This document shows, one piece after another, positions 19,018-46,575 of a DNA stretch of 64,000 bases. Numbering within the stretch: the first letter of the stretch is position 1; each line of letters begins with the position of its first letter. The notes beneath the pieces are model-generated. The model worked only from the letters and a program-made list of their open reading frames with translations, ran no database searches and was not told the origin of the DNA. Origin of the DNA: Gammaproteobacteria bacterium HGW-Gammaproteobacteria-1 (GTDB lineage: Bacteria; Pseudomonadota; Gammaproteobacteria; Thiohalomonadales; Thiohalomonadaceae); the NCBI GenBank assembly GCA_002840095.1, contig PGZL01000008.1, positions 124,001-188,000 on the forward strand. Reading direction: 5' to 3'. The position numbers and the translations under genes were made by a program.

Positions 19018-19115
19018 GCCTTCCGCAGGTGCGGTCACATCGGCACATCTTCGCACCGCGGCAGATTCCAAGGTTTCTTCTCCCCGGAGAGGGAGTTATC
19101 GCAGAGGTATTCGAC

Positions 19116-19928
19116 ATGAGCAATCTGGCGAGCGAGCAATTTCTGGTCAAGCAGCAGCCTTACTACCATCCGGTAGGGGAAGAGGTGGAACTGTATGAAG
19201 CCGCCTACGGCGCACGCATGCCGGTGATGCTGAAAGGCCCGACCGGCTGCGGCAAATCGCGCTTCGTGGAATACATGGCCTGGAAGCTGGGGCGGCCGCT
19301 GGTCACCGTCGCCTGCAACGAAGACATGACCGCCTCCGATCTGGTCGGCCGCTTCCTCCTCGACAAGGACGGCACGCGCTGGCAGGACGGCCCGCTCACC
19401 ACCGCCGCACGCATCGGCGCCATCTGTTATCTCGATGAAGTGGTGGAGGCGCGTCAGGACACCACCGTGGTGATCCATCCGCTCACCGATCACCGCCGGA
19501 CCCTGCCCCTGGACAAGAAGGGAGAGCTGATCCAGGCCCATCCCGATTTTCAGCTGGTGATCTCCTACAACCCGGGCTACCAGAGCCTGATGAAGGATCT
19601 GAAGCAGTCCACCAAGCAGCGCTTCGGTGCGCTGGATTTCGACTATCCGGCGGAGGCGATCGAAGTGGAGATCGTCGCCACCGAAACCGGCATCGACAAG
19701 GACACCGCCGCCAAGCTGGTGCAGATCGCCCAGCGTGCGCGCAACCTCAAGGGCCATGGCCTGGACGAAGGCATCTCCACCCGCCTATTGGTCTACGCCG
19801 GGCAGCTCATCGCCAAGGGCGTCGATCCGGTGGCGGCATGCAGCATGACCCTGGTGCGGCCGCTCACCGACGATCCGGATATGCGCGAAACCCTGGACGC
19901 CGCGGTGGCGACGTTCTTCGTGAAATAG
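19116..19928 (+). CDS. cbbQ: RuBisCO activase AAA+ subunit CbbQ (form I partner)
   Basis: The protein is 270 aa. It is a MoxR-clade AAA+ protein: Walker A GPTGCGKS at residues 41-48, Walker B/sensor [30 protein letters not shown], and sensor region [12 protein letters not shown]. CbbQ hexamers with one CbbO remodel inhibited RuBisCO. GAGG 8 nt upstream supports the start. It is about 80% alike by eye to the second CbbQ at 25629 and is paired with the form I enzyme. Confidence 0.95.
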
Positions 19929-19930
19929 AT

Positions 19931-20015
19931 GTAGGTTGGGTTAGCGCAGCGTAACCCAACAGGGTGCCGAGGCAATGTTGGGTTACGGCGCAAAACAGCG
20001 CCTAACCCAACCTAC
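19931..20015. repeat. Palindromic repeat 'GGTTGGGTTAGCGC' between cbbQ and cbbO
   Basis: GTAGGTTGGGTTAGCGCAGC with GTAACCCAAC, and the mirrored GTTGGGTTACGGCGC with GCCTAACCCAACCTAC. This family also occurs at 22769. It sits inside the operon and would fold in the mRNA. Confidence 0.75.
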
Positions 20016-22858: not shown

Positions 22859-22924
22859 GTAGGGTGCGCACCGCGCACCATAGACGTCGATTGGGGCAGG
22901 TTGGTGCGCAGTGCGCACCCTACA
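22859..22924. repeat. Palindromic repeat 'GTAGGGTGCGCACCGCGCACC'
   Basis: GTAGGGTGCGCACCGCGCAC is mirrored by GGTGCGCAGTGCGCACCCTA. The same family forms part of the array at 28.9-29.4 kb. Confidence 0.8.
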
Positions 22925-28825: not shown

Positions 28826-29441
28826 CAGAACATCTGCCGCGGAGACGCAGAGCCGCGGAGAGTGTGTTTGCTCAAGCCGTGCATCCGCCTGATGCAGGCC
28901 GCTACGGCATGAGCAAGCCCGACTGCGCTTTACTACTTTCTGCGTCTCCGCGTCTCTGCGGCAAATGGTATAGACGTAGGCATGCCCAGGCGCCGGATGG
29001 TGCGCAATGCGCACCCTACAGAAACACTCTGCGTCTCTGCGTCTCTGCGGCAAATGGTTTAGGTCTTGATGTAGACGTAGGCATGCCCAGACGCCGGACG
29101 GTGCGCAATGCGCACCCTACATAACTTGCAGCACTCTGCGCCTCCGCGTCTCCGCGGCAAATGGTTGGGGCTTGATGTAGGCGTAGCTTGTGTAGGGTGC
29201 GCACCGCGCACCGCGCACCGTGGCATGCCCAGGCGCCGGATGGTGCGCAATGCGCACCCTACATAACTTGCAACACTCTGCGCCTCCGCGTCTCCGCGGC
29301 AAATGGTTGGGTCTTGATGTAGGCGTAGCTTGTGTAGGGTGCGCACCGCGCACCGTGGCATGCCCAGGCGCCGGACGGCGCGCAATGCGCACCCTACATA
29401 ACCTGTAACACTCTGCGTTTCCGCGTCTCTGCGCCAGGGGG
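28826..29441. repeat. Tandem array of palindromic units with DsrE 3'-end copies
   Basis: About 620 bp without a gene. Units begin near 28939, 29027, 29133, 29277 and 29411. Each has a CTCTGCG..CTCCGCG..GCGGCAAATGG segment, a CTTGATGTAGRCGTAG segment, and a GTGCGCAATGCGCACCCTAC palindrome; units 3 and 4 also hold a TGTAGGGTGCGCACCGCGC arm. The CTTGATGTAGACGTAG part equals the last codons (YVYIKP) of the DsrE gene at 29442. The array is therefore a multiplied copy of that gene end plus two intergenic repeats. Confidence 0.8.
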
Positions 29442-42105: not shown

Positions 42106-42382
42106 GGATTATTTCTTCCTGCTTGGTCGAGCGGCACGTCGGCATGGGGCAACACACATGATGGGCCCCAGTGTAGCGTGTGCGGGAAGGACATAAAACC
42201 GGGAACGGCGATGCAGGCGGCGTTTATCGGCCCGCGCCGGCCATCGAAAGCTTTGATAGGTTCCAGACAGAAATGCTCAGGCTTTGCTGCTACAGTTTCG
42301 GGTGAACGCAAGTCTTTTCGACACAGGGTGTGCTCCCCGCCACGGAGGGCTGATTCCACTGTCTCTCCCGGAGGTGATGATC

Positions 42383-43183
42383 ATGCGTCGTCCCTATCTG
42401 GAACATTACGTATCCCCCATTTCCATGCCCGAAATCCGCACCGTCGATCCCATGCGGCCGTGGTTCTGGCTCAGCGAGGGCTGGCGTGACTTCGTGGCAG
42501 CGCCCGGCCTCAGCCTGGGCTACGGCCTGATGGCGGCGCTGGCCTTTGCCCTGGTCTCCCTGCTGCTCGGCTCGGCCGGCTCCTGGCACTGGGCCATCGC
42601 CCTGATGCCGGGCTTCCTGTTCCTCGGTCCGGTGCTGGCGGTGGGGCTGTACGAAATCAGCCGGCGCCGCGAGGGCGAGCTGGACAGCACCCTGGCCGAC
42701 ACCGCCCACGGCTGGCGCCGCAACATCATGACCAGCCTCAGTCTGGGCATCATCATGGTGTTGCTGATGCTGGCCTGGTTCATCGCCTCCATGCAGCTGA
42801 CCGCGCTGTTCGTGGCCAATGCGGGGGTGATGGCGATGGTGTTCGGCGGCGGGGCGGATCTCGCAGGCTTTCTTTCCTCCATCACCTGGCCCATGGTGGC
42901 GGCTGTCGCCATCAGCGGCGTGGCGGCGCTGGCCGTGGCCTTCGTCCTGACGGTGGTGGCGGTGCCCCTGGCGGTGGATCACGAAGACATCGACGTGATT
43001 ACCGCCCTGATGGTCAGCGTGCAGGCCTGCATACGCAACGGGCGGACGATGCTGCTGTGGGCGGCCCTGGTCACGGTATTTGCCGGCATCGGCATCCTGC
43101 CGCTGTACCTCGGCCTGATCGTCACCTTCCCGCTGCTGGGCTATGCCACCTGGCATGCCTACCGCGACATCGTCGGACAGTAG
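42383..43183 (+). CDS. DUF2189 family membrane protein
   Basis: The protein is 266 aa with six or so TM segments. It has IRTVDPMRPWFWLSEGWRDF near the N-terminus and LPLYLGLIVTFPLLGYATWHAYRDIV at the end, typical of DUF2189 proteins, which are often near cytochrome oxidase genes. CCGGAGGTG supports the ATG at 42383. A 44-bp copy of its 3' end lies downstream at 43251. Confidence 0.82.
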   Translation: MRRPYLEHYVSPISMPEIRTVDPMRPWFWLSEGWRDFVAAPGLSLGYGLMAALAFALVSLLLGSAGSWHWAIALMPGFLFLGPVLAVGLYEISRRREGELDSTLADTAHGWRRNIMTSLSLGIIMVLLMLAWFIASMQLTALFVANAGVMAMVFGGGADLAGFLSSITWPMVAAVAISGVAALAVAFVLTVVAVPLAVDHEDIDVITALMVSVQACIRNGRTMLLWAALVTVFAGIGILPLYLGLIVTFPLLGYATWHAYRDIVGQ

Positions 43184-43250
43184 GCCGGACATAGCGTAGC
43201 GGTGTCCGGCGACGTTGCCCGATACCGTTGCGCTATATCGGGCCTACATT
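43184..43250. repeat. Palindromic repeat 'GTAGGCCGGACATAGCG'
   Basis: TAGGCCGGACATAGCGTAGC to CGTTGCGCTATATCGGGCCT. A similar unit lies at 45844. It separates the DUF2189 stop from a relic of a second DUF2189 gene end. Confidence 0.7.
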
Positions 43251-43294
43251 GCTATGCCACCTGGCATGCGTATCGGGATATCGTTGGGCAGTGA
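43251..43294 (+). pseudogene. Relic 3' end of a second DUF2189 gene
   Basis: These 44 bp read YATWHAYRDIVGQ-stop, as does the intact gene end at 43140-43183. All eight base differences are at third codon positions or in the stop (TAG against TGA), so each is silent. This implies the copy descends from a paralogue that evolved under protein-level selection and was then lost. No other part of it remains. Confidence 0.75.
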
Positions 43295-43393
43295 CGGAAG
43301 GGGCTGGGGGTCAGGGACTAGGGGCTAGGGAAGGAGTGCGCTGCGCACACCGTGGTTTTTCTTGTCACTTGCAACTTGTCACTTGTAACTGCC

Positions 43394-45734: not shown

Positions 45735-45906
45735 GCAGAGGCGCGGGGCTCAAAATTGATTTCCTCCGCGGCCCTGCGTCTCCGCGGCGGGATTTTGAAG
45801 TTTTTCCCGTTCTTTGCGTCCTGCGGTGAGCGGGCGCTGACAGTAGGCCGGACATAGCGCAGCGGTGTCCGGCAAGGGCGCCCCATACCGCCGCGCTTTC
45901 CCGGAC
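45735..45906. repeat. Two palindromic repeats before comM remnant
   Basis: 45735-45795 carries GCAGAGGCGCGG mirrored by CTGCGTCTCCGCGG ('CGCAGAG' family). 45844-45906 carries GTAGGCCGGACATAGCGCAG mirrored by GCGCTTTCCCGGACCTAC, the same family as 43184. Confidence 0.65.
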
Positions 45907-46575
45907 CTACCCCCCGCCCCGATCCAGCCGCCGGTAGGCCAGGGCCTCGCTCAGGTGCGGCAATTCCACCTTGTTACTGTCCGCCAGGTCCGCCACCGTG
46001 CGGGCCACGCGGATGATGCGGAAATAGGCCCGGGCCGACAGCCCCAGCTTGTCCACCGCACGATCCAGCACATCCAGTTCCCTATCCCCCATTGGGCAGC
46101 GCTTGCCGCACTCCAGATTGCTGAGGGCGCTGTTGGGCTTGCCCTGGCGCGCCAGCTGCCGCCGCCGCGCCGCCGCCACCCGCGCCCGCACCGTGGTGCT
46201 GTCTTCCGCCGTCCCGTCGGCGGCCCGCAGGGCCTCCTGCGGCAGGCTGGGCACCTCGATCTGCAGGTCGATGCGATCCAGCAGCGGCCCCGAGATGCGG
46301 GCGCGGTAGCGCAGGATCTGGTCGCGGGTGCAGTGGCAGCGCCCGCTGGGGTGGCCGAGATAGCCGCAGGGGCAGGGATTCATGGCCGCCACCAGCTGGA
46401 AGCGGGCGGGAAACTCCGCCTGGCGCGCGGCGCGTGAAATGGTGATGCGGCCCGACTCCAGCGGCTCGCGCAGCACCTCCAGCACCCGGCGATCGAACTC
46501 CGGCAGTTCGTCCAGGAACAGCACGCCCAGATGGGCGAGGGAGATCTCGCCCGGCCGCGGATGACTGCCGCTGGC
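45907..46575 (-). pseudogene. comM: ComM (YifB, Mg-chelatase family) truncated by transposon insertion
   Basis: About 222 codons of the C-terminal half remain: GSHPRPGEISLAHLGVLFLDELPEFDRRVLEVLREPLESG, then FQLVAAMNPCPCGYLGH, SGPLLDRIDLQIEVP and the terminal ALAYRRLDRG. ComM is a hexameric helicase that aids branch migration in natural transformation. The family is about 500 aa; the N-terminal half with Walker A is missing, and AT-rich foreign DNA replaces it. comM is a well-known target for AbaR/Tn7-like islands. Transformation is probably impaired. Confidence 0.88.

Follow-up and report, generated by a model that had tools for sequence, protein, structure and literature searches.

How a single gene can come to have two ends is the question raised by the DUF2189 locus of Gammaproteobacteria bacterium HGW-Gammaproteobacteria-1. 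In the stretch of 64,000 nucleotides that we analyzed (hereafter the window), an intact DUF2189 membrane-protein gene of 266 amino acids (42383–43183, forward strand; ATG at 42383 within the ORF 42284–43183) matches PF09955 in a profile search (E 1.3e-19). Its last 44 bases, the live end (43140–43183), recur on the same strand as a dead, truncated copy at 43251–43294. A sequence-only reading of this region had reported that the two 44-mers encode the same peptide and stop with silent differences only, and this is borne out: 8 of the 44 bases differ, in 7 codons (live/dead GCC/GCG, TAC/TAT, CGC/CGG, GAC/GAT, GTC/GTT, GGA/GGG and TAG/TGA), giving seven silent and no replacement changes. The copies share an identical core of 19 bp, and the sequences flanking the repeat that separates them align over 40 bp with an E value of 2.4e-8. 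Because of this E value, and because only 6 of 1499 points drawn at random from 464 kb of the genome have a comparable flanking direct repeat, a chance origin of the paired gene ends is very unlikely. The silent-only pattern is also hard to obtain by copying one end and letting the copies drift. In a model that restricts the live copy to silent changes and leaves the dead copy free, all six sense-codon differences are silent with a P of 0.0014 (kappa 2) to 0.0025 (kappa 4), which agrees with the earlier claim that a simple recent duplication does not fit. These values suggest that, before the two ends were brought together, they probably belonged to separate lineages and diverged there as coding sequence.

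The palindromic repeat that the same reading had placed between the copies proves to be a 68-bp doublet of two inverted REP palindromes (GTAGGCCGGAC...ATCGGGCCTAC; 43180–43247), and apart from this doublet only 3 bp lie between the two gene ends. The doublet runs from GTAG to CTAC as a single long hairpin, with a DNA fold of −22.8 kcal/mol (z −5.2) and no equally stable sequence among 200 shuffles. Its family has 18 near-full copies in the genome and further copies in congeners. With an inverted REP pair in one hairpin, GTAG tags and many dispersed copies, it is REPIN-like. Its best Rfam match is naRNA4, which we take to be REP-derived (RF02564; E 0.01 and 28.6 bits, far under the cut-off of 59.5). 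GTAG stands at both termini, as it does in all 42 full-length doublets compared, copies that were chosen for full-length alignment. At the left edge, the TAG stop of the live end is part of the doublet's own GTAG. At the right edge, a tail reading ATTGCT (43248–43253; AGCAAT in reverse) ends in the same GCT at which the similarity of the dead copy starts. AGCRAY is the commonest 5′ neighbor of the GGCCGGAC half in the 42 full-length doublets; at DUF2189, the AGCAAT-type tail adjoins the other half and not the GGCCGGAC half. Three matches to Y1_Tnp (RAYT-type) transposases were found in the genome, each beside GTAG repeats of another family, and the loci of about 3.3 kb around these genes, among the 70 contigs of the genome, gave no match to the DUF2189 doublet family. 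The repeats at the three loci (L161, L162 and L163) belong to the GTAG families GTAGGAGCGGATCG, GTAGGATGGGTAG and GTAGGGTGGGCAG, different at each. Elsewhere in the window, a second doublet of the DUF2189 family lies beyond the helicase gene (45843–45910), and doublets of a family marked by GTAGGGTGCGCA lie at 22859–22923, 29208–29262 and 29334–29397.

The sequence-only reading interpreted the dead copy as the relic of a lost paralogue and proposed to look for tandem DUF2189 genes in close relatives. DUF2189 matches occur in 14 of 56 genomes, including that of HGW-Gammaproteobacteria-1 (G000) and four others of the same genus (G001 to G004). Each of the four congeners has one DUF2189 gene at the locus, and none has a second gene end or a tandem gene there. 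A UvrD-type helicase gene comes next in G001, G002 and G004; the G003 contig ends 56 bases past the DUF2189 gene, its helicase is on another contig, and the downstream side was covered in G003 by the genome-wide search only. That search returned further DUF2189 matches at 27–32% identity in the four congeners and 26–27% in G000, and with identities of only 26–32% none of these can be the source of the relic. The sequence that follows the single gene end is CAGTAGCAGAAGGGGCT in G002 and CAGTGATCTAGGGGCT in G003, and in the window CAGTGACGGAAGGGGCT follows the dead copy. This GGGGCTAGG-type tract (43295–43331 in the window) stands directly after the gene end in both relatives; the dead copy, with its TGA stop as the native end, is therefore in its native place. 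The idea of a lost paralogue is thus not supported. That reading had also named what would speak against it, namely relatives without a second gene that hold the same 44 bp; the relatives do lack a second gene, and the extra 44 bp are absent from them. Directly after the gene, the doublet is present in the window and absent in G001–G003. G004, which has 33 matches to the doublet family, all but one near full length, has a family doublet in the corresponding gap, 86 bp past the DUF2189 stop, with no gene-end copy. In G001, the gene end (L003) shows a 16-bp inverted self-copy around the stop, CGAGACATCGTCGGCC AGTA GGCCGACGATGTCTCG.

The two ends differ in their affinities. The dead copy has 3 differences of 44 from G003, 9 from G002 and 7 from G001, and the live end has 9, 3 and 5, respectively; four informative sites pair the live end with G002 and the dead copy with G003, against one and none for the alternatives. 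From these comparisons, the dead copy looks orthologous to the G003 end and the live end looks foreign, although codon bias could imitate the likeness of the live end to G002. In the gene as a whole, synonymous-codon identity between the window and G003 is 76.0 and 74.9% in two upstream genes and 59.4% in DUF2189, whereas between G003 and G001 it is 71.3 and 71.7% upstream and 71.3% in DUF2189. G002 is upstream as near to the window as G003 by this measure (75.0 and 75.2%), and the upstream affinity to G003 resides mainly in protein identity and in the trees. Both upstream gene trees join the window with G003 (alternatives at p-AU 0.0032 and 0.0007). For DUF2189, the best tree joins it with G002 but keeps the grouping with G003 at a p-AU of 0.27; none of the AU tests on the whole gene or on sections of it reaches significance, and the tree of the downstream helicase supports no grouping. 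Site patterns that unite the window with G003 make up 84 of 178 upstream and 11 of 43 in DUF2189, where they number 3 of 14, 1 of 10 and 7 of 19 in successive thirds. In the last third, nearest the joint, the three patterns are even (7 : 5 : 7) and no loss of affinity to G003 is seen. In 800-bp windows, DUF2189 is the third-lowest of 125 for likeness to G003, with windows near 19.1 kb lower and others near 34.0 kb about as low. Import of the whole gene is thus suggestive only, and we discarded these gene-wide measures as proof of it, since windows elsewhere are as low or lower and the AU tests are not significant. Around 19100–20000 of the window, G000 agrees with G001–G003 at about 82% while these three agree at 90–93%, and this stretch is a possible replaced segment of its own.

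Gene-end copies also occur at doublets elsewhere. Across 864 kb of G000, comprising the window and 40 stretches of 20 kb, they are present in 3 of the 22 gaps that contain a GTAG-tagged doublet, compared with 1 of the 355 that do not (Fisher p 6.7e-4, or 0.0086 without the window's own gap); the general doublet definition was written after two cases were known, which makes this test partly post hoc. The first test, confined to the DUF2189 doublet family, gave 1 of 4 gaps with the doublet, namely that of the window, compared with 3 of 206 gaps lacking it, and in two of those three copy-bearing gaps the doublets belong to a different GTAG family. Over 400 kb of G001, none of 180 gaps contains a doublet and none a gene-end copy. 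Taking G000 and its relatives together, 4 of 38 gaps with a DUF2189-family doublet carry a gene-end copy, and so do 2 of 23 gaps with a GTAGGGTGCGCA-family doublet in G000, both already known cases. In five gene-end cases, the truncated copy starts close to the doublet, at 3 bp in the window, 8 in a G002 case, 5 in a G004 case, 6 in a recG-like gene and 14 at locus L247. More generally, a flanking direct repeat within 250 bp accompanies 14 of 48 doublets, compared with the 6 of 1499 random points given above. Seven of the 14 lie in arrays (L107, L111 twice, L205, L212 twice and L213); the others involve gene ends (the window, L144 and L149), other repeats (L115, L137 and L159) and a CRISPR-like locus (L208). 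The "gene end" of L107, within a doublet array, may be a spurious ORF. At L208 (G004, contig C19, near the contig start), two copies of GTTCATCCCCGCGCATGCGGGGAACA, a repeat that we take to be CRISPR-like, flank the REP doublet. A regular target-site duplication by doublet insertion was considered and rejected, as 34 of the 48 doublets have no flanking repeat at E 1e-5.

Individual cases vary in how closely they resemble DUF2189. The clearest parallel is a gene that we label recG-like (L232:13411–13557; contig C1 of G000, about 53.4–53.6 kb), in which a dead copy lies across a GTAGGGTGCGCA-family doublet from the live end, with three silent and no replacement differences, and is identical to the gene ends of G001, G002 and G003. 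It is weaker than on first appearance: the last 34 bases of the gene show no differences among G001–G003, and the end may therefore be conserved for another reason. The same layout at a presumably RND-type gene in G002 has no silent and two replacement differences, and at the start of what we take to be a response-regulator gene in G004 no silent and five replacement differences. At the RND-type locus, the end is single in the other genomes and no DUF2189-family doublet is present in them; in G000, this locus has a doublet from a different GTAG family. At L149:1356–2200 (G004), a doublet separates a truncated response-regulator start from a truncated copy of a neighboring gene's end, as if two operon versions had been fused at the doublet. 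At L247:7240–7560 (contig C66 of G000), three copies of a gene's 3′ end alternate with as many GTAGGGTGCGCA-family doublets, with silent/replacement codon counts of 2/3 and 2/4; the stop of this gene is the doublet's GTAG, and the gene ends differently in G001 and G003. With replacement differences in the G002, G004 and L247 cases, we dropped silent-only divergence as a general rule. Conversely, the start of a presumably bioD-like gene (L231:14950–15275, contig C1 of G000) forms a tandem repeat of 140-bp period with no doublet between the units, whose coding part has silent/replacement counts of 3/0 in the second unit and 2/1 in the third, so silent-only pairs also arise without a doublet.

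Of the explanations considered, we tentatively favor replacement of the DUF2189 end by a diverged, doublet-carrying allele through an illegitimate right-hand joint, with a confidence somewhat short of even. The live end, and perhaps the whole gene, would derive from an allele of a related lineage, whose last codon was immediately followed by a REP doublet. Upstream, homologous recombination would have exchanged the resident allele; downstream, the doublet tail ATTGCT would have been joined illegitimately to the resident gene at GCTATG, a candidate microhomology of three shared bases (GCT). A joint 44 bp before the resident gene end would leave the last 44 bp dead ahead of the native flank. The sequences show two diverged ends separated by a doublet, a dead copy in its native position and one gene per relative; the import, its direction and extent, and this joint are what we infer. 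Replacement is favored because it explains the silent-only pattern and its polarity better than the rivals do. It gains from the loss in DUF2189 of the G003 affinity held by the upstream genes, and from the recG-like gene, which has the same layout and a dead copy identical to G001–G003. Counted against it are the p-AU of 0.27 for the window with G003 together with the even last third, and the replacement differences in three other doublet cases. Our confidence is lowered by the even last third, by an L231 pair that is silent-only and by the post hoc nature of the doublet definition. We found no donor genome for the live allele, and illegitimate joints of this kind are described as rare in the available text on displaced genes (PMC5361080).

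The association with doublets is better explained by template switching or cleavage at REPs than by replacement, and both kinds of process may operate. In a template switch during replication or break repair, the gene end would be copied, then a REP doublet elsewhere, with a return 44 bp upstream, so that end, doublet and end arise in one step; the ends would then drift, with the silent-only pattern a matter of luck or of a later exchange of the live gene by ordinary recombination. Such doublet gain with duplication accounts for gene-end copies that track doublets (under the post hoc definition), for the G002, G004 and L247 cases with replacement differences, and for arrays of doublet plus flank. 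We nevertheless consider it unlikely, if far from negligible, at DUF2189, given the P of 0.0014–0.0025 there (0.08–0.09 for the recG-like gene) and the polarity of the two ends: in the window, where the nearest relative of the dead copy is G003, the closest by the upstream tree, and in the recG-like gene, the dead copy is nearer to relatives than the live end is, and neutral decay predicts the opposite. Alternatively, REP doublets may be active joints: cleavage near their edges, either by RAYT at CT or CA sites or through processing of the hairpin, would fuse the resident gene, within about 14 bp of the doublet, to a sister or incoming allele. We regard this reading as quite unlikely. According to the available text of PMC8266576, TnpA-REP enzymes do cut their REP substrates at CT or CA sites close to the REP.

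The lost paralogue of the sequence-only reading would be one of two diverged tandem DUF2189 genes, with a deletion ending at the doublet that left 44 bp of the second. It would provide two diverged ends, each from a coding gene, the layout matches a deletion between the doublet and the second gene, and the G004 doublet between two truncated genes (L149) is in line with it. Set against this, no congener has a tandem or second close DUF2189 gene (G003 downstream by genome-wide search), an extra stage is required that nothing shows, and the one gene in G003 looks like the ortholog of the relic, all of which makes this history decidedly improbable. Recoded gene ends are a known outcome at integration sites, for example with prophages in icd, and the 19-bp identical core would suit an attachment-site relic, left by an element that had integrated with a recoded gene end (attL/attR) and later disappeared. 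With nothing integrase- or element-like between the copies, where there is only the 68-bp doublet and 3 bp, such an origin is scarcely credible.

Several elements of allele replacement at a doublet, as favored here, have precedents in the literature. The DUF2189 doublet shares with REPINs the dispersed, inverted REP pair, and REPIN ordered clusters are described as tandem repeats that take in flanking sequence (Bertels and Rainey 2011, PMC3116915); unlike such clusters, as far as the available text describes them, a single doublet here stands between a complete gene end and its truncated copy, which has diverged silently. A GTAG repeat terminus is reported to serve frequently as the TAG stop of a gene (PMC3733652), and the DUF2189 doublet likewise lies at a 3′ gene end with its terminus giving the stop. 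Duplicated gene ends set our case apart from that account, in whose available text the string "duplicat" does not occur. For leftovers of displaced genes, homology-facilitated illegitimate recombination has been proposed (PMC5361080). For gene displacement in Vibrio T6SS arrays (PMC5361080, PMC3240628), as in our favored reading, the proposal is that homology-anchored incoming DNA replaces a resident gene with older 3′ material left behind the newcomer, but as far as the available texts go the leftover differs, being here a dead 44-bp end with a REP doublet at the joint. None of the titles or abstract openings retrieved describes duplicated gene ends at REPs or REPINs, and within that literature we have not seen a silent-only dead native end combined with a REP doublet at the joint.

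Clear evidence that an allele has been replaced is hard to obtain. With a dead native end next to a REP doublet, a single sequence would document the replacement, its direction and its joint. The spread of REP elements is itself called poorly understood in the available text of PMC8266576. If doublets are active joints, the spread of REPINs would leave a genome-wide record of gene-end replacements in the form of truncated gene ends. Should the link between doublets and dead gene ends hold, a count of such scars in REP-rich genomes could serve as a measure of illegitimate allele replacement and as a test of whether REP doublets take part in it.
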